Shown here in pieces: positions 53,614-61,700 of a stretch of 64,000 bases of DNA (the stretch's first letter is position 1; the number at the start of each line of letters is the position of its first letter). The notes below the pieces were generated by a model. The model searched no databases, was not told the origin of the DNA, and worked only from the letters and a program-made list of their open reading frames with translations. The position numbers and the translations under genes are program-made. The stretch comes from Planotetraspora mira (GTDB lineage: Bacteria > Actinomycetota > Actinomycetes > Streptosporangiales > Streptosporangiaceae), in assembly GCF_016863275.1 (NCBI RefSeq), contig NZ_BOOO01000004.1, forward strand, positions 186,001 through 250,000, in the 5' to 3' direction.

Positions 53614-54675
53614 CTACGGCTCGGGAATGCGGTCGGCCGCGCCCACGGCATAGGGGTCGGCGTTGCCGCCCAGGAGGTTCTCGATGGACATGACCGCCTG
53701 GTCGAGCATCCTGTCCATCGCCTGGCGGGTGTGTGAGGCGACGTGGCCGGTCACGAACATCCGGCTGCCGAAGTCCTGCAGGAGCCTCACGGCCGCCTCG
53801 GAATCCTTGCCGTAGAACCCGTCGAACACGGCGAGGTGGACACGATCGGCCTTCATGCTCGCGTACAGGGCGACGGGGTCCACCACCGACGGACGGGCCG
53901 TGTTGATGAGGATCGTCCCGGGGCGGGCTCTGCCCAGAACCTCATCGTCGATCATGGAGGTGGTCGTGTCGTTCCCGGGGACCATGACGACGAGGATGTC
54001 GCTCCACTCCGCCAGATCCGGGAGTTCCATGAACTTCATGTCCAGCGACCGCTCGAGATGCCTCTTCGGCGTCCGGCTGTAGTACGCCACGTTCGCGTCG
54101 AAGGCGACCCGCAACATCTCCGCGATCCGCGAGCCGATGACGCCCATCCCGACGATGCCGACGTTCCGGACGCTCAGTTCGGACGGCAACTCCTCGGCCG
54201 AGGTCCAGTCGGGGTAGCGGTTGCCGTACTGCTGGAAGATCCGGAGGTTGGCGTTGATGATCTGACCGACGGTGAAGGTCGCGACCGAGTCCCTCGCGGC
54301 CCCGGGCGTGGACGTCACGACGATCTTCAGGTCGTCGGCCGCGGCCACGTCCACGAAGGTCTCGTATCCGACGCCGAGGAAGGCGACGACCTTCAGCGTG
54401 GCCTTCGCGCTCTCCAGCGCCGCGCGGGAGGCACGCTCCTCGCCTCCGTGCAGGTAGGCGACCACGCCCTGCAGCTCATGCGTCAACTGCTCCTCGGTCA
54501 GCACAGGAGAGGGCTGCCTGACGTCGTACCCCCGTGCCTTCAGAGCCTCCAGCCGCCCCGCGTCGATGCCCGTCCCCGTGACCAGGATCGTCCTGTTCAC
54601 CGCCCTCGCCTGGATAGGGCGATCGGCCATGTCAAAATGGCCCGATATATCCGTGATCACATCGGTATGGGGCAT
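53614..54675 (-). CDS. D-isomer-specific 2-hydroxyacid dehydrogenase family protein
   Basis: A 353-aa protein with NAD-binding motif VGIVGMGVIGSRIA (172-185), the conserved Arg261 in ILINTARPSVVD and late His311 in VTGHVASHT. The usual catalytic Glu (F-E-x-E-P) is replaced by VFDGFYGKDSE, so catalysis may be altered or the acid comes from the Asp. Substrates of the family are 2-oxoacids and D-2-hydroxyacids. Start either at 54675 or at the Met at 54630 just before the fold begins. Same strand as the ThDP gene, 98 bases apart. Confidence 0.82.
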   Translation of the reverse strand: MPHTDVITDISGHFDMADRPIQARAVNRTILVTGTGIDAGRLEALKARGYDVRQPSPVLTEEQLTHELQGVVAYLHGGEERASRAALESAKATLKVVAFLGVGYETFVDVAAADDLKIVVTSTPGAARDSVATFTVGQIINANLRIFQQYGNRYPDWTSAEELPSELSVRNVGIVGMGVIGSRIAEMLRVAFDANVAYYSRTPKRHLERSLDMKFMELPDLAEWSDILVVMVPGNDTTTSMIDDEVLGRARPGTILINTARPSVVDPVALYASMKADRVHLAVFDGFYGKDSEAAVRLLQDFGSRMFVTGHVASHTRQAMDRMLDQAVMSIENLLGGNADPYAVGAADRIPEP

Positions 54676-54917
54676 TTTATCTCTCAGACTTAGGACACCA
54701 ATGTCCGTTTTTCTCGCGAGCAGCTCCCATCACAGCAAACCTGCCTGTGAGGCGATTTGCCCGCTTGGTCAGGCGACGGAGCAGGAATTCAATGGTATAA
54801 GGGTCTTGGTGGTCTCGTCTCCACCTAGCAGCAAAAGCAAGCCCTAAAGGAAGCCGAGAACCCCTTCATCGGCCCGCCGGACTACGTCGTCACCCGTAGT
54901 GCAGAGAGGGTTCACAT

Positions 54918-56753
54918 ATGAAACTCCAACCCCGTCAGCAGCTTCTGGAGGTCTGGGAGGCGGCCGCCCGCACCTCACTCCGTGACGGGGTGTGGACATG
55001 GGGCGGGAGAGACGGGTCGAACTCCATCTCGGACGCCGAGCAACTCCTGTGCTTCATGCATCCGGCCTCCGAACTCCCCGGTTTCCGGCTGGACGCCCCG
55101 GACGAGACGGCCGACGACGTGCTGACGGCACTGTCCCGGCTGGGCGACAGCGTCGAGATCCCCAAGCTCCTCCTGAAGGTCATCGGCGAGTATCTGCGCA
55201 CCTACACCGGAGACGACGGGCGCCCGCTCTTCTCCGGCGGTACCTACTTCAGCACCGCCGACCCCGACGTCAAGGTCACCCCGGAGCAGATGCAACTCGA
55301 CGTGGTCGACTCCTTCTCCATGTCGGTCACGCTCATGCTGGGCACACTGGGCTTCCTCAAGGTCTTCCGGCAGAGCGTCCGGCGCGAGGACATCCGCAAG
55401 GAGATCCGGGAGTTGGAGAACATGTCCAACACCCGCCTGTCCGCGGCCATGGTCGGGCTGCTGCGCAGCTTCACGGTCAACGCCTTCGACCCCGGCTCCC
55501 CCGCGGGCCGCGCGCTGCTGCGCACGGTCAACCAGACGGGCGCCGCGGAGCGGCGGGTCCTCGACGACCTGCGACGCGAGTTGCGCCCCGTCCGCGCCGG
55601 CCTTCGCGACCTCACGATCGGATCCGGCAGCGAGGTCGACCTCGACAACGAGAACCTGCTGTTCGAGTGCGGCTGGACGTGGGGGATCGTGAAGGACGCC
55701 CCCGACGTCGTCACGCCGTTGCACGTCGGCCCTCAGCCCAAGGGCGTCGCCGCGGACAACCCCTTCCTGTACTTCACGGTCAACGCCCTCGTCGGCGTCC
55801 AGGACCTGTGGTCGGAGCGGACCAGAATCCTCGGCCTGCTCGACGACGACCAGCTGACCCTCGCCCAGGCGCTCCAGCGCCGCTGGGACATCACCCAGCG
55901 CTACTGGCGCACCATCGCCATGTACGGCAAGGGCACCTGGCCCCTGGAGGACATCCCCTGGAAGACCTCCGACGAGAAGGAGTCGGAGTACTACAGCCTC
56001 GGCGTCACCGCGATGGTCGTCCAGAGCCTCGTCAACAACCGCACCGGCGACGTCGACCTGGGCCGGGTCGCGGACGTCCTGGAGGAACTCGCCATCCGGG
56101 CGAGGATCATCCGCAGGGCCGTGCCGGGCGACCTGCCCGTCCTCATGCACTCCCCCGGCGTCCAGGTCAATCTGCAGGGCAGCGACTCCCTCGGCCCCCA
56201 CATGGTCTGGGTCGTCTCCGACTTCGCGATCACGTTGCTCAAGAGGACGATCTGGGCCGCCTCGATCGCGCAGAACACCAGGACCAGAGAGAAGCTGCTG
56301 AGTCTCGCCGACAGGATCTGGCGGCACATCATGCAGCGCCGGGGCACCGAGGGTGTCGGGCGCGGGCTCTGGGACCAGCCCGCCAACGTCTTCACCGACC
56401 TGGACGCCCACCACGAGGAGCCGTCCTGGTACTTCAGCGAGCGCGTGGTCGAGTTCCTCGTCGCGGCCGCCCAGGCCAGTGGTGACTCCCCCCTGCGGAG
56501 CCCGCAACTGGTCGACTTCGCCTACCAGATGCTCAGCGAGGCCGAGCACCTGCTGGACCAGGAACTCGTCACCCGGCCGCTGATCACCGGGCAGACCATC
56601 CAGCCCAAGCTGCGAAGCATTCAGGCCGCCCTCAACCGGGCCCGGCTGATCATCAGTAGCCGGCCCGCCACCGCCAACGCCCTCGTGATCGACGCGCTTC
56701 TCGACCTGGAACGCCTCACCACCGCGCGTGACAGCGCCTCGGAGGCGATCTGA
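54918..56753 (+). CDS. SCO2524-family protein (unknown function)
   Basis: A 611-aa mostly helical protein of the actinobacterial SCO2524 family, known by conserved context only. It opens LQPRQQLLEVWEAAARTSLR, WTWGGRDGSNSISDAEQLL, which is the family hallmark. The central and C-terminal parts contain repeated alpha-helical pairs with conserved W and H (WVVSDFAITLLKRTIWAASI, FTDLDAHHEEPSWYFSERVV). No catalytic motif can be named. ATG 54918 follows gagaggg (54904-54910). The stop overlaps the next start by one base (TGATG). First gene of a five-gene operon. Confidence 0.85.
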   Translation: MKLQPRQQLLEVWEAAARTSLRDGVWTWGGRDGSNSISDAEQLLCFMHPASELPGFRLDAPDETADDVLTALSRLGDSVEIPKLLLKVIGEYLRTYTGDDGRPLFSGGTYFSTADPDVKVTPEQMQLDVVDSFSMSVTLMLGTLGFLKVFRQSVRREDIRKEIRELENMSNTRLSAAMVGLLRSFTVNAFDPGSPAGRALLRTVNQTGAAERRVLDDLRRELRPVRAGLRDLTIGSGSEVDLDNENLLFECGWTWGIVKDAPDVVTPLHVGPQPKGVAADNPFLYFTVNALVGVQDLWSERTRILGLLDDDQLTLAQALQRRWDITQRYWRTIAMYGKGTWPLEDIPWKTSDEKESEYYSLGVTAMVVQSLVNNRTGDVDLGRVADVLEELAIRARIIRRAVPGDLPVLMHSPGVQVNLQGSDSLGPHMVWVVSDFAITLLKRTIWAASIAQNTRTREKLLSLADRIWRHIMQRRGTEGVGRGLWDQPANVFTDLDAHHEEPSWYFSERVVEFLVAAAQASGDSPLRSPQLVDFAYQMLSEAEHLLDQELVTRPLITGQTIQPKLRSIQAALNRARLIISSRPATANALVIDALLDLERLTTARDSASEAI

Positions 56754-57670
56754 TGCTGATCTTCGCCATCTCGGACAAGGGCGGCACAGGCCGCTCGGTC
56801 ACCAGCACCAACATCGTGTACAGGCATGCCCTGCAGGGCAACGACGTCTGCTATCTCGACTTCGACTTCGGTTCCCCGACGGCCGGGGCGATCTTCAGCG
56901 TCGGCTCGGTGGCCAGAGGGACCACGCGGAAGGGCTTGCACGACTACCTCCTCGGCGAGGGCGCCCCCGAGCCGCACCGCGTGGACGTCTGGACCGAGTC
57001 CGATCGAGAGGGGCTGCGGACCAAGCCGCCCGGCGCGGGGCGGCTGGTGTTGTTGCCCGGCAACGAGGGCGGCGGCGAGCTTCCCGCCGTCGAGGAGGAG
57101 ACGCTCCGAAGGTGCGTCCAGTTGTTCAGCCGTCTCGATGAGGAGTTCGACCTGGTCATGGTCGACGTGAGCGCCGGCCGCTCCTTCACCGCGGAGATGG
57201 TCCTGCAGGCCACGGTCAGGCTGCCGTCGGTGCCCTTTCGCTGGCTGGTCTTCCACCGCTGGACCCGGCAGCACATCATCGCGGCGGACGGTCTGGTCAC
57301 CGGTGCCGACGGACTCCTCGACGCCGGAACGAGGTTCGGGCACAAACGCGACGCCCTCCGCGACCGCATCCGCTTCGTCAGGACCGCCGTGCTCGAACCC
57401 GACGCCGCCGAACTGGTGGGTCTGCGTGACGAGCAGCGCGCCTGGTTGTTCGCGTGCGACACCGAGCTGCGCGAGCTGGCAAGCCGGCACAAGGTCGGGC
57501 GCACGTCGATGCTCGGCAAGATCCCGCTGGACCCGATCCTCCAGTGGCGCGAGCAGCTCATCTCGGACGAGGACGTCCTGGCGAGCAAGATCGCGAATGC
57601 CGAGACGGCCGCGGCGTTCGACGACCTGGCCAAGAAGATCGTGGACGACGCCGCGTGGGAGGGTCTGTGA
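56753..57670 (+). CDS. SCO2523-family variant P-loop (ParA/MinD-like) protein
   Basis: A 305-aa P-loop protein of the SIMIBI (ParA/MinD/Mrp) class: SDKGGTGRSVTSTNI is the deviant Walker A with the signature Lys9 kept. The central lysine of K-G-G-x-G-K-S is Arg13 here, the feature that gives the family its variant name. The A' motif is DLVMVDVSAGRS and DFDFGSPTAG follows strand 2. Such a change usually weakens ATP hydrolysis. ATG 56753 overlaps the preceding stop by one base and the stop overlaps the next gene (GTGA). A switch or assembly role for the operon is inferred. Confidence 0.88.
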   Translation: MLIFAISDKGGTGRSVTSTNIVYRHALQGNDVCYLDFDFGSPTAGAIFSVGSVARGTTRKGLHDYLLGEGAPEPHRVDVWTESDREGLRTKPPGAGRLVLLPGNEGGGELPAVEEETLRRCVQLFSRLDEEFDLVMVDVSAGRSFTAEMVLQATVRLPSVPFRWLVFHRWTRQHIIAADGLVTGADGLLDAGTRFGHKRDALRDRIRFVRTAVLEPDAAELVGLRDEQRAWLFACDTELRELASRHKVGRTSMLGKIPLDPILQWREQLISDEDVLASKIANAETAAAFDDLAKKIVDDAAWEGL

Positions 57671-58623
57671 CGTCGGTGAACGCGACGTTCGGCGAGGTCG
57701 CGGCTGAGCGCCGGATCGCGTCCGCTCCCCTCTCCCACGTGTCCATCGAGCTCGGGCATCTCTACATGGAGGACTTCGAGGCCGGGCCGGAACGGCTGCG
57801 CGAGCAGTTCCGCCGGGTCGCCCCCTGGGCCGGCACCGTGCGGTCGAGCTGGCAGGACCGGGTTCCGGGCGGTCGCGCCAGGGTCAGCACGTGCTTCCTC
57901 ATCGACGACTACTTCAGCCGGTTCAGCACACCGGCCGAGCTGGTGCCGATGGTGCTCGAGGCCGCGGCCGACTGCGACCTGACCATCGACTACATCGCCA
58001 GAGAGTCGGCCTGTGCCGTGTCGGACGGCGTCGAGCTGGCCAGGCTGGTGGAGGACCGGCTGGTCAACGACCCGCCGCCGGACACCAACGGGTCCCGCCC
58101 ACCGGTGAAGGAGAGCGGCTGGTTGTGCAACGGCGCACGGTCTCCGCAGGTGGGAACCGTACAGGCCATGGGCAAGGCCAATCGGTGGGCGCCCCCGCTG
58201 CAGAACGCCAAGCGTGGCCACTCCATCTTCGTGGACGTGGAGCTGTGGGACGAGAACGGCGGGAAGCGCACATGGTCGTGCCCGTTCCTGGCCGCGGTCT
58301 GGCAACTCCTGCGTCTCGGGCTGCTGCGCACGGACGGGCGGCTCCCGCTCCGGCCGGTCATGCGTGAAGACGCCTTCCCCGACGATTGGGAGTCCCTCCC
58401 CGCCGTCATGCAGCTGAACCCGGCAGCGGCGCCGTTCAGCGCGTACACCACGCTGTCCGTCCTCTCTCCTCGTTTCCTGCCCGTCGAACTGGCCGTGCGC
58501 ACGATCCTGAGCCAGGTGGCGGTGGACGGCGACGTCCTTCGGCAGGTGGTCGCTCGAAGCGGCGGCGAGGGCATCCGGCTCGAAGAAGAGCTCGTGGACC
58601 GCATCTCCTACGTCTTCGCTTAG
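57667..58623 (+). CDS. SCO2522-family protein (unknown function)
   Basis: A 318-aa protein: RIASAPLSHVSIELGHLYME near the start is the family signature, followed by CFLIDDYFSRFSTPAELVP and DLTIDYIARESACA. The C-terminal half, GHSIFVDVELWDENGGKRTW, SCPFLAAVWQLLRLGLLRT and the like, is a strand-rich fold. Conserved D-D-Y and E-S residues suggest an enzyme, but no known active site can be matched. The GTG start overlaps the previous stop (GTGA). Confidence 0.83.
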   Translation: MTSVNATFGEVAAERRIASAPLSHVSIELGHLYMEDFEAGPERLREQFRRVAPWAGTVRSSWQDRVPGGRARVSTCFLIDDYFSRFSTPAELVPMVLEAAADCDLTIDYIARESACAVSDGVELARLVEDRLVNDPPPDTNGSRPPVKESGWLCNGARSPQVGTVQAMGKANRWAPPLQNAKRGHSIFVDVELWDENGGKRTWSCPFLAAVWQLLRLGLLRTDGRLPLRPVMREDAFPDDWESLPAVMQLNPAAAPFSAYTTLSVLSPRFLPVELAVRTILSQVAVDGDVLRQVVARSGGEGIRLEEELVDRISYVFA

Positions 58624-58637
58624 GAGCCTTCGAGCTG

Positions 58638-59564
58638 ATGCTTGTCATGGGGGAAGTCCACACCGGGCTGCTGCAGAACTCCGGGGAGATACCCGAATCG
58701 ACCTGCCGGGACGTGCTCCAGCTGCTTTCGGGCGAGAGGGTCCGCGTCTCCCGGCGTCCCATCGTCTACGCGGTGTCGCCGGATCTGCTGACCGGAGTCG
58801 ACTGCCGCCTGCCGTCGGCCTCGCAGTCGCGGATCAGAGGAGCGGGCACGGTTCTGTCCCGCTCCTCCATCACGGGCGGGCGGGTGGTGCAGGGCTCCTC
58901 CTACACCCGGATCGAGCGCAGCGGCTCCGACCGCCGGCAGCCGTGGTCGCACTACCTCGCGCGGCCGGGCGTGGTCGAGGTGCTGGGCAAGGTCAAATCC
59001 CGGGACCTCGCCGACGGGTTCGCCGAGGATCCGCCCGCGGACGGCCTCGACCTCGGCGCGATCAGCGCGCGCTTTCTCGACGTGGTCCAGTCGTCCCCGC
59101 TCCTCGACCGGCGGGCGCCGTTCAAGATCGCCCGTACGCGCCTCCGCTGGGTGGCCGAGCAGGGCGAGCCGGCCATCCGCTTCACCCTTCACTCCGAGCA
59201 GATGCGCACGGTGCGACTCGTCCACACGGGCGAGTTCACCCCCGCCGTCGCCGACCTCTGCGAGGATCTGGCGCTGCACGACTGGCTGCTGACGGCCCTG
59301 CTGGTCATCATCGAACGCGCCCGCATCGGCGGCACGCCGGGGCCGGAGGCGGCGGTCAAGCTGGCTCCCGCCGTGGACCACCTCCTGCATCTGTGGATGC
59401 CGTCCGCCCGGGTCGACGACGTGCTGAGCGCCTACTGGGAAAGCCTCGACCGGCGTCCGGGATTCACACGTCAGTGGCAGTCGCTGGTCGACCGTGTCCG
59501 CGACCAGCTCGCGGTCCACACGTTGGCCTTCTTACGAGAGAAAAGCGGGGGCGGGGCCCGGTGA
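58638..59564 (+). CDS. SCO2521-family protein (unknown function)
   Basis: A 308-aa protein beginning MLVMGEVHTGLLQNSGEIPE (MGEVHTGLLQ-S is the family hallmark). It continues with RPIVYAVSPDLLTGVDCRLP and TVLSRSSITGGRVVQGSSYT, which form a strand-rich first half. The second half is helical, ending FTRQWQSLVDRVRDQLAVHT. A start at 58647 is an alternative; 58638 has taggag 11 bases upstream. Separated by 14 bases from the previous gene, the only gap in the operon; the stop overlaps the next start. Confidence 0.82.
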   Translation: MLVMGEVHTGLLQNSGEIPESTCRDVLQLLSGERVRVSRRPIVYAVSPDLLTGVDCRLPSASQSRIRGAGTVLSRSSITGGRVVQGSSYTRIERSGSDRRQPWSHYLARPGVVEVLGKVKSRDLADGFAEDPPADGLDLGAISARFLDVVQSSPLLDRRAPFKIARTRLRWVAEQGEPAIRFTLHSEQMRTVRLVHTGEFTPAVADLCEDLALHDWLLTALLVIIERARIGGTPGPEAAVKLAPAVDHLLHLWMPSARVDDVLSAYWESLDRRPGFTRQWQSLVDRVRDQLAVHTLAFLREKSGGGAR

Positions 59565-60505
59565 CGGTGAAGAGCAAGCTGACGCGCGAGATCATGCCAC
59601 GCACGCTCAGGAAGATCCTCATCACGGCGGCGGTCGGCATCCCGACCTATTTCGTGACCGACGACAACGGCCCGTTCCTCGGGAACGACGCGGAACCCCA
59701 GGCGTGGGGCCTCGTCCTCACCGTCTTCATCAGCAGCGTGGTCATCGTCGTCCAGTACCTCATCGACGTCGACAGGCAACTCGAGTCGACCCGCCTGGAA
59801 ATGGTCGCGGGCATGTCCAGGATCAACGAGGCGACCGAGCTGTTCGGCCTGGTGGAGGCGTCCGCCGTACAGACCGACGTGGTCACCCAGCTCGTCCGCA
59901 ACGCCACCCGGGTCGACAGGGGGATGCCGGCGCTCGTCCAGGCGTTCGCCCAGACGGAGATCGCCAGGATCTCCACGCTTCTCCGCGAGCTCGGCGAGGG
60001 CAACGTCATCTACGAGGGCGAGGACCGCGACTGGCTCCTCGGCCTCACCGCGAACACGCAGCGCTCCCTGGACGCCCTCAGCCTCAACCTGGTCGACCAG
60101 GGGATCACCGAGTTCGACGGCGGCTTCTGGACCACCGACGCGGGCCAGCGCTATCTCGAGGCGCAGCGGGACCGCATCCGTGAAGGTGTGCGCATCCGGC
60201 GCATCTTCTTCGTGGATCGTTCCGAAGTGGAGTCGGAGAAGTTCCGCCGCATCTGCAAGATGCACTCCGAGATCGGCGTCCAGGTGCGCGTCCTCACGCC
60301 GAACACCCTCGTCACTCCGCTGGGACTGTTCGACTTCATCGTCTTCGACGACGTCGTCAGCTATGAGGTGACCCCGTCTCCGCAGGTCGGTGAGATCACC
60401 ACGCACACCTTCGTGCACACCCTCCTGGTGCTCGAACCGCCGCAGGTGAAGCGGCGGACCGACCGCTTCAGAGAGCTGTGGGAGCTGGCGTCTCCGCTGG
60501 CGTAG
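59561..60505 (+). CDS. Membrane protein with DUF6879/PLD-like C-terminal domain
   Basis: A 314-aa protein with two membrane helices (about 17-34 LRKILITAAVGIPTYFVT and 48-68 AWGLVLTVFISSVVIVVQYLI) and a coiled coil (69-100). The soluble domain FDGGFWTTDAGQRYLEAQRD / RIREGVRIRRIFFVDRSEVE with VRVLTPNTLVTPLGLFDFIV resembles the DUF6879 / phospholipase-D-like fold, though no H-x-K catalytic motif is seen. It could anchor the other operon products at the membrane. GTG 59561 overlaps the previous stop. In this operon it stands where the Streptomyces cluster has other partners. It overlaps the convergent FAD oxidase gene by 38 bases. Confidence 0.72.
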   Translation: MTVKSKLTREIMPRTLRKILITAAVGIPTYFVTDDNGPFLGNDAEPQAWGLVLTVFISSVVIVVQYLIDVDRQLESTRLEMVAGMSRINEATELFGLVEASAVQTDVVTQLVRNATRVDRGMPALVQAFAQTEIARISTLLRELGEGNVIYEGEDRDWLLGLTANTQRSLDALSLNLVDQGITEFDGGFWTTDAGQRYLEAQRDRIREGVRIRRIFFVDRSEVESEKFRRICKMHSEIGVQVRVLTPNTLVTPLGLFDFIVFDDVVSYEVTPSPQVGEITTHTFVHTLLVLEPPQVKRRTDRFRELWELASPLA

Positions 60506-61700
60506 CCGCGGCCGCCGTGGACTCCGCCGGTGTGGCCGCGAGGAACTCGCGGTCGGGCCGGCAGATGTCGAGCCGCTTGCGCGTCTCCGCGTCGACGTCA
60601 CGGCGGATGAGGGCCGAGACCATCTCCGCGGTGACGGGGGCGAGGGTGACGCCGAGGCCGCTGTGACCGGTGGCCGCCAGGACCCGCTCATGCGCGTCGA
60701 CGAAGCCGATGATCGGCATGTGGTCCGTGCTCCCCGGTCGCAGCCCGGCCCAGCGCTTCTCGATGGGCCAGTTCGCGGCCGCCGGCATCAGCGCCGCCAC
60801 GCCCCTCATGATCTCGTCACGGGCCCGGTCGGTCACCTCCGCGTCACCCACACGCGGTTCGTACGTGACGCCGACGGCGACCCTGCCGTCGTGCCGCGGG
60901 ACGAGGTAGGGGTACCCCTCGTAGCCGTCCTCGATGATCTCGGTGAAGACGTGGTGACGCAGCGGGTAGGTGGTGGCGCCGGGCGGCCGCATGTCGAAGG
61001 CCTCACCCTTGATCGGGAACAGGTGCTCCCTGAGTTCGGGCAGGAAACGCACGCTGTGATGCCCGGCGGCGACGACGACCGTGCCGGCCGAGATGCGCGA
61101 ACCGTCGCCGAGTTCGACGACCACACCGTTGGGCGTCGACTCGAGGCCGGTGGCCCGCGAGCCCAGCCGGACCCGCACCGCGCCGCCTTCCCGCGTCAGC
61201 GTCCTGCCGAGGGCCACCATGAGCTCCCGCGGGTCCAGCGCCAGCTCTTCGGGGAGCAGGAACCCGCCGACGACCGCGTCGCTCAGCAGCGGCTCCAGCT
61301 CCTTGGCGTCCGCGGCGGTCAGGCGGACGACGGCGAAGGGCGAGTTCTTCCACTGAGGCAGGACATCGGTCTCCAGCCGCGTCATCGCCGCGTCGTCGAG
61401 CGCGACCTGGATGTCGCCGCCGTCCAGCACGTGGACCGCGGCGCCGGAGATCGAGGTGAGCTCGTCGAGCCATTCCGGGTAGATGTCGCGGCTGCGCTTG
61501 ATGACCGTGCTCAGCGGGCCCAGGCAGGCGGGCTCCGTCTGCGTAAGGATGCCGCCCATGGCCGCGTCGGAGGCGCCGAGACCGAGGCGATCCCCCGCGT
61601 CGATGAGGACGACGTCGCGTCCCTCAGAACCAAGGCGGTGAGCGATCGCGCATCCGATCACACCACCGCCGATGATCGCGACATCGCAGGTTTCAGGCAA
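60468..61700 (-). CDS. FAD-dependent amino-acid oxidase/dehydrogenase (glycine/D-amino-acid oxidase family)
   Basis: A 410-aa flavoprotein of the DAO/ThiO/SoxB fold. The FAD motif is CDVAIIGGGVIGCAIAHRLG (4-23), followed by VVLIDAGDRLGLGASDAAMG. The late motif is GLRPGSTDHMPIIG and GHSGLGVTLAPVTAEMV closes the FAD site. It should oxidise a small amine or D/imino acid and feed electrons to O2 or a quinone. The Ala/Pro/Thr-rich tail (about 390-410) is a low-complexity extension. It converges and overlaps with the five-gene operon. Confidence 0.87.
   Translation of the reverse strand: MPETCDVAIIGGGVIGCAIAHRLGSEGRDVVLIDAGDRLGLGASDAAMGGILTQTEPACLGPLSTVIKRSRDIYPEWLDELTSISGAAVHVLDGGDIQVALDDAAMTRLETDVLPQWKNSPFAVVRLTAADAKELEPLLSDAVVGGFLLPEELALDPRELMVALGRTLTREGGAVRVRLGSRATGLESTPNGVVVELGDGSRISAGTVVVAAGHHSVRFLPELREHLFPIKGEAFDMRPPGATTYPLRHHVFTEIIEDGYEGYPYLVPRHDGRVAVGVTYEPRVGDAEVTDRARDEIMRGVAALMPAAANWPIEKRWAGLRPGSTDHMPIIGFVDAHERVLAATGHSGLGVTLAPVTAEMVSALIRRDVDAETRKRLDICRPDREFLAATPAESTAAAATPAETPAPTAL

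Follow-up and report, generated by a model that had tools for sequence, protein, structure and literature searches.

Among the closest known counterparts of the genes analysed here is the SCO2521-SCO2525 set of Streptomyces. PMC11472566 places sco2521-sco2526 in one operon of the HupS regulon, which in S. coelicolor ends at sco2521, and for SCO2525 this paper and two others (PMC3017869, PMC6344877) indicate a bearing on growth, differentiation or morphogenesis. A search for the locus names SCO2521 to SCO2524, SCO2520, SCO2525, SCO2526 and DUF6879 among open-licence papers returned only these three. Here, we describe five co-directional genes, A to E, of Planotetraspora mira, which lie in a window of 64,000 nucleotides (the whole stretch of DNA analysed; contig NZ_BOOO01000004.1, positions 186,001 to 250,000). 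We found that A to D are full-length members of the four SCO families, arranged in the same order as in Streptomyces-type loci, and that the fifth gene, which encodes a predicted membrane protein, is exchangeable: in related loci its place is taken by a protein that joins a nicotinamide adenine dinucleotide-degrading (NADase) domain to a NACHT domain, or by other proteins. Searches of open-licence papers brought up no account of this exchange. The genes form an old, patchily distributed actinobacterial cassette, which is real, conserved and not an ordinary one. With somewhat less than even confidence, we read it as a signalling module whose partner can be exchanged and whose role is immune-like or that of a programmed response.

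The five genes are packed on the + strand between positions 54918 and 60505. Gene A (54918-56753, 611 amino acids) matched the SCO2524 family (NF040567) with 937 bits against a cut-off of 300, B (56753-57670, 305 amino acids), a MinD/ParA-type P-loop protein, the SCO2523 family (NF040564) with 501 bits (cut-off 200), C (57667-58623, 318 amino acids, GTG start, alternative start at 57676) the SCO2522 family (NF040566) with 462 bits (cut-off 200) and D (58638-59564, 308 amino acids) the SCO2521 family (NF040565) with 421.5 bits (cut-off 150). Each match covers the full length and exceeds the curated NCBIfam cut-off more than twofold; the grouping of the four families, which an earlier note on this DNA had proposed from the letters alone, is confirmed. 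E (59561-60505, 314 amino acids, GTG start, alternative start at 59594) is predicted to be membrane-anchored and has a DUF6879-like C-terminal half. The reading frames gave the junctions that the note had listed: a 1-base overlap between A and B, 4-base overlaps between B and C and between D and E, and a 14-base gap between C and D. From these overlaps, stoichiometry may matter. The 4-base overlap of B and C was seen again in 90 of the 109 junctions compared, a count made with a script that takes the start codon closest to the upstream stop and is biased to short gaps. The window genome (9.03 Mb) carries a single copy of A, and this protein shares 99% identity with its counterpart in Planotetraspora silvatica.

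For the comparison of neighbourhoods, which was done in three rounds, 121 A genes of at least 560 amino acids were reduced by seven at 99% identity to 114 and by nine more with short flanks to 105 non-redundant loci, which were picked for diversity and not at random. Genes beyond the named families were called with a simple codon-position script, and details of these calls may be wrong. B follows A directly in 104 of the 105 loci, the exception being the upstream member of the A pair in L168. A nearby C was seen in 102 loci, all but L029, L083 and L158, and D in 101, as it is missing from these three and, additionally, from the reach of one A copy in L167. The core of the set thus consists of A and B, with rare exceptions. 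Among 396 genomes of the phylum, only seven, including that of the window, encode A above the family cut-off, and D was found in the same seven, which argues that the grouping is more than chance. The corresponding numbers for A are 30/150 genomes in the window's family, 29/150 in the genus of genome G334 and 112/200 in the family of Longispora, to which L029 belongs. We take the former genus to be Streptomyces because L042, the sole named Streptomyces locus, falls among its members in the tree of A (FastTree only, long branches flagged, two further rows excluded by length), and the latter family to be Micromonosporaceae. A scan of named genomes added 36 loci from Planotetraspora, Microbispora, Sphaerimonospora, Nocardia, Longispora, Catenulispora, Micromonospora, Actinospica and Streptomyces. 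Conservation beyond close relatives, on which the earlier note had staked its proposal, therefore holds for the window's own family, Streptomyces-like bacteria, the Longispora family, Nocardia, Catenulispora and Actinospica.

Evidence that E is a true member of the set comes from its position. It is present in 69 of the 105 loci (26/29 of the window's own family, 24/25 of the genus of G334, 19/39 of the family of L029 and 0/12 of the remaining named loci). In 62 of the 68 loci with D and an E of more than 200 amino acids, E lies behind D in the same orientation and no more than 400 bases away, and in 17 of these 62 the two genes are inverted. Such turning of D and E as a pair is seen in many Micromonosporaceae loci. 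No other observation speaks as clearly for a joint action of D and E as this pairing, and the fifth-gene membership suggested by the earlier note is borne out. Since the published S. coelicolor operon ends at sco2521, E would there carry the next lower locus number; literature searches limited to open-licence papers turned up none that names E. The NCBIfam search gave no family match for E. Compared with Pfam DUF6879, which resembles its C-terminal half, E has an additional N-terminal membrane part and scores just below the cut-off (23.5 versus 23.9 bits); the E proteins of L046 and L048 scored 33.0, which is above the cut-off, and 20.4. DUF6879 may be a phospholipase-D-like fold without catalytic residues. 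Membrane segments were scored with a 19-residue hydropathy score. Two N-terminal hydrophobic segments were detected in 25 of 32 family members and one in the other seven, and the window E is among the latter kind in that its first 110 residues contain one strong segment, from residue 50, the N-terminal one staying below threshold. The "two-helix" label of the earlier note fits most of the family and, by this score, the window protein less well.

When we sorted the 105 loci by their partner gene, E (69 loci) was followed by c11, a second kind of membrane protein carried by Nocardia, Catenulispora and Actinospica (11), a DUF4062-NACHT protein (8), a protein with two transmembrane segments and a glyoxalase domain (6) and a large WD40 P-loop protein (3). 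An FGE-NACHT protein, a caspase and an NNH7-type STAND protein were found once each, and five loci carry none of these kinds. No such partner was recognised in L024, L141 and L158. Two of the searched kinds (E, c11, large nucleoside triphosphatase or protease genes) never occurred together in one locus (0/105). Of 13 whole genomes, those of the window and L010 contain E, and that of L029 gave a single weak match away from the locus; the search for E was negative in seven c11-type genomes and in the genomes of L018, L024 and L039. Two C-terminal hydrophobic segments were scored in 9 of 11 aligned c11 members. We do not claim c11 as a potassium-channel-like pore, as one of the 11 members matched Ion_trans_2 with an E-value of 0.57. 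In L161-L166, six loci of one clade, a proline-rich membrane protein adjoins D. Its proline- and alanine-rich representatives are located at 13580-15148 of L161, 3816-5381 of L162 and 13514-14875 of L165, and the two that were scanned (L162, L165) end in a glyoxalase domain. The WD40 P-loop protein is encoded divergently from A in L136, L145 and L159 (L145 was scanned with Pfam, the others were assigned by similarity). The L145-type protein matched the PADLOC profile HEAT-ARM_XIII with an E-value of 4.7e-63 over its repeat part and an effector model with 1.3e-6; its N-terminus may be a degenerate metallophosphoesterase. Apart from this protein, the eight neighbour and partner proteins compared with PADLOC gave weak matches only. 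In L029, a caspase-domain gene overlaps A by 4 bases and an M48 peptidase gene lies downstream; in L083, an NNH7-type STAND gene overlaps A by 4 bases. Both loci consist of A and B without C and D. L018 has an FGE-NACHT gene convergent with D. We rejected the L018 and L083 genes as decisive cases, since NACHT genes are frequent in those genomes. Homologous GNAT-membrane proteins (40% identity) are encoded between B and C in L028 (12916-14145, Nocardia) and L117 (4810-6027, genus of G334); these loci are without E and without intact c11, and L028 keeps a short c11 fragment.

Among the partners, the DUF4062-NACHT protein allows a comparison with a described anti-phage system. Nine L029-family loci (L138, L142, L146, L150, L169, L170, L173, L174, L175) have it in place of E, and its gene adjoins D or is one gene away. 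The genes in between, which had been considered as hidden copies of E, turned out to be FAD oxidases (FAD, flavin adenine dinucleotide). Measured between stop codons, the proteins have about 1300-1600 residues, unless the end of the stretch cuts them off; that of L138 is split over two frames. In the four that were scanned in the right frame (L142, L146, L170, L173), Pfam read DUF4062, NACHT and HEAT repeats. All nine aligned DUF4062 rows contain the motif S-[IF]-T-x-L-E, with histidine before the leucine in L146; a tenth row, a NACHT protein without DUF4062, falls outside this count. A genome-wide profile count in 38 genomes of the family of L029 placed 9 of 22 DUF4062 copies in this operon. 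All 38 had been selected for having A and six of them for a DUF4062 protein at the locus; these six contain 8 copies, 7 of them in the operon, and the other 32 contain 14 copies, two of them in the operon. In the eight genomes concerned, 9 of 10 copies are in the operon. These nine fall in stretches of less than 20 kb in genomes of 4-12 Mb, and it is a fair statement that in these eight DUF4062 occurs almost nowhere else. G811 has two A copies and two DUF4062 genes, one near each. A 2026 preprint (PMC13174449) reports DUF4062 as a TIR-like NADase in the anti-phage system Swarozyc, protection of E. coli against phages through loss of NAD+ by a Klebsiella DUF4062 protein, DUF4062 beside NACHT in human TEP1 and a base rate of about 1-15% of the analysed genomes. 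The window itself differs from Swarozyc: its genome (G000) gave no DUF4062 match, its partner is a membrane protein, and the likeness is confined to relatives in the family of L029. MinD/ParA-like domains that are predicted to be inactive are known, according to PMC7159879, from the actinobacterial conflict systems VMAP and FxSxx. In contrast to VMAP/MoxR-vWA systems, no vWA, MoxR or VMAP match was obtained in a search that covered the five proteins of the window.

The proteins of the set show features of their own. In B, the motif K9-G-G-T-G-R14-S15 is invariant in all 22 aligned sequences. The deviant Walker A motif of ParA/MinD ATPases reads KGGxGK[ST], and B departs from it in that arginine replaces the Walker-A lysine in 22/22 sequences, whereas the signature lysine and the P-loop are retained. 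D36, D38 and D138 are likewise invariant, and together with the motif this argues against a dead relic. The arginine variant is shared with the KGGVGR AAA ATPases (NF047398, E-value 2.8e-10), but the score of 40.8 bits is below the cut-off of 90 for that family. Matches of B to ParA-type families other than SCO2523 also stayed below the respective cut-offs and were mostly limited to the N-terminal third. The AlphaFold model of A (predicted local distance difference test, pLDDT, 91.6; predicted template modelling, TM, score 0.89) is mainly helical, as the earlier note had expected of its "large helical protein". With this model, Foldseek gave a best E-value of 7.6e-3 and nothing below 0.001. 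Among the best 50 of 458 matches, 16 have a probability of at least 0.8, with TM scores of at most 0.32 on the query. We take all 16 to be (alpha/alpha) toroid enzymes (GH48, GH76, epimerases, cellobiose phosphorylase, squalene-hopene cyclase), and judged from the model A is probably a distant toroid of this kind. For C, invariant polar residues (R72, S74, T75, C76, D80, D81, D108, E113, C116, H185, D190 and E192 in 21 sequences) suggest an enzyme. The C model (pLDDT 78, uncertain at 135-189) is mixed helix and strand, which makes the claim of two strand-rich proteins weaker than stated; a Foldseek comparison with the PDB gave nothing at an E-value of 0.001. PDB searches with profiles built from the sequences of A, C, D, E and c11 retrieved nothing credible.

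Downstream of E, the gene at 60468-61700 on the - strand encodes an FAD-dependent oxidoreductase of the DAO (amino-acid oxidase) superfamily (PF01266, E-value 5.3e-61), which is convergent with E and overlaps its end by 38 bases. At first we regarded it as unrelated, a view that was dropped after neighbour counts. FAD oxidases of this superfamily are neighbours of the operon in 25 of the 39 L029-family loci (strong matches to a model that was based on six of these genes) and in 24 of the 29 loci from the window's own family (weak matches; relatives of 60468-61700, of a different subfamily). Such a neighbour was seen in 1 of the 25 loci from the genus of G334 and in 2 of the 12 remaining named loci. 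L018, which has lost E, is also without this gene. FAD oxidases are frequent genes, and we consider the association a lead, which favours a metabolic element; the oxidoreductase is possibly a further member of the system. FAD oxidase genes beside or inside the operon include L142:16445-17389, L146:887-1852, L170:13043-14101, L141:4067-5056, L167:5450-6406 and L168:10693-11709; together with the window gene they represent two subfamilies in two families of bacteria, and in L117 such a gene lies between B and C.

Upstream of A, the intergenic region 54676-54917 (+ strand) is the expected promoter site of the operon, and beyond it a divergent hydroxyacid dehydrogenase gene occupies 53614-54675 on the - strand. 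This arrangement differs from an operon led by SCO2525, the methyltransferase (NF040568) that we found in 52 of the 105 loci, in 48 of them directly upstream of A. In contrast to the Streptomyces SCO2521-SCO2525 set, the window genome gave no SCO2525 match, in a search that was silent in control genomes too, and its E has no NCBI family. The family was detected in L044-L048, and a GNAT match (a broad family) was obtained in 37 of the 105 loci. Two consecutive SCO2525-family genes precede A in L093 (5424-7460), L094 (9385-11037), L148 (5972-8720) and L157 (10718-12781). Gehring reportedly gave the original account of the SCO2525 phenotype in 2004. The earlier picture of the five genes was incomplete, since elsewhere the methyltransferase often leads, E is replaceable and an FAD oxidase gene adjoins many loci.

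Copies of A that are split or shorter were kept outside the 105 count (L039, L084 in part, L096, L098, L149, L150 and L172). Split or fragmentary ones were located at L096:7696-10131, L098:7700-8525, L149:8197-10037, L150:7100-9867 (where B is affected, too) and L039:905-2735, and the A fragment of L098 shares part of its stretch with a DUF4062-NACHT match. These copies are signs of decay of an accessory system, which patchy presence and decayed copies together fit. Two Catenulispora loci (L036:2887-13975, L037:3126-12888) contain two adjacent, opposite-facing A-B-C-D copies with c11 and GNAT genes near. In L167 (4563-17226) and L168 (3861-17660), two A genes lie a few kb apart among methyltransferase, E-like and FAD oxidase genes, and short E-like genes (247-251 amino acids) adjoin the methyltransferase genes of L168. 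In L042 (9102-12213), A stands behind a TerB-domain gene and is followed by the frame of a short protein whose holin-like matches are weak.

In the signalling module that we favour, A, large and toroid-like, and B, a P-loop switch with changed Walker A, would form the core, with the enzyme-like C and D as usual members. The partner, mostly adjoining D, would serve as sensor or output; in the window this would be E and elsewhere another membrane protein or a STAND-type nucleoside triphosphatase with a TIR-like NADase domain. The core may sense a cue or keep the partner inactive, and a nucleotide-dependent rearrangement of A and B, relayed by C and D, might then free the partner, which would act at the membrane (E, c11) or by loss of NAD+ (DUF4062 type). 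Gene content, conservation, partner exchange and physical linkage are what the data show, and from these we infer such a complex, its order of signalling and its role. Relatives of phage-fighting enzymes in the place of E suggest an alarm or immune-like machine rather than housekeeping, and the partner exchange lends indirect support to the signalling or defence machine that the earlier note had put forward. A sharper version, in which the A-B-C-D core (a toroid-like protein and an arginine-variant P-loop switch) gates one executioner per locus, be it E or c11 as membrane proteins, a caspase or a NACHT protein with a TIR-like NADase, and so constitutes a new class of actinobacterial innate-immune or programmed-death machine, is doubtful. 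The other idea of that note, a ParA/MinD-like complex positioned at the membrane, draws on the MinD/ParA P-loop region of B and the predicted anchor of E. The arginine in all 22 B sequences, the sub-threshold matches to other ParA-type families and the swap of the membrane partner for a NACHT protein in some loci speak against it, and we consider this explanation improbable.

Several observations weigh against the signalling module and in part favour other explanations. PADLOC 2.0.0 profiles gave no match to A, C, D and E and for B only a weak one (19 bits, PDC-M28B), which places none of the five among the known anti-phage systems. No A copies were found in the plasmid and phage collections. 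With 7-28 NACHT matches per genome and three NNH7 proteins in G587, STAND genes are common, so that those of L018 and L083, which are single cases, may lie there by chance. Genes for the WD40, NNH7 and caspase proteins sit upstream of A and do not adjoin D, and in L142, L146, L170 and L174 an FAD oxidase gene separates D from the DUF4062-NACHT gene. The partner changes 13 times on the tree of A compared with a shuffled mean of 34.1, and since it follows the tree, locus counts make the cases look more independent than they are. Two changes suffice for the DUF4062 state, so that it arose on one or a few occasions and was then kept. A is not always accompanied by B either, as seen for the upstream L168 copy, for L172 (A of 558 amino acids), which shows none, and for L042, where the frame following A is not B. 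The amino-acid-oxidase-like neighbours and the methyltransferase point to metabolism. If methyltransferase, FAD oxidase, GNAT protein, A and C made or modified a small signal or an envelope component, with E as anchor, then the frequencies of these enzyme genes, the invariant Asp, Glu, Cys and His of C and the glycosidase, epimerase and cyclase toroids nearest to A would find an explanation; however, the fold matches are weak and the enzymes are often missing where A and B are present, the FAD oxidase in 24/25 loci of the genus of G334 and in 10/12 of the remaining named loci. The FAD-oxidase counts lowered our confidence in the signalling module from an even chance to somewhat below it, slightly reduced that in the immune machine and raised the metabolic pathway from improbable to merely unlikely. 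An unlikely explanation, too, is a regulator of growth and development of filamentous actinobacteria, a complex that tunes aerial growth and differentiation with STAND neighbours being incidental. The HupS regulon and the developmental role for which SCO2525 is cited argue for it. However, A was found in no more than 29 of 150 genomes from the genus of G334, which would be odd for a core developmental gene, the window genome gave no SCO2525 match in the search that was silent in controls too, and DUF4062-NACHT proteins replace E in relatives. That none of these explanations applies is very improbable.

Four protein families that are known only by locus numbers thus gain a testable hypothesis. 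If the signalling module is real, a system present in 112 of 200 sampled genomes of the Longispora family and in about one fifth of the sampled Streptomyces-like genomes would link a ParA-like switch and a toroid-like protein to STAND proteins and TIR-like NADases. The bacteria that carry it are noted for antibiotics and complex development, and the developmental role attributed to SCO2525 could be recast.

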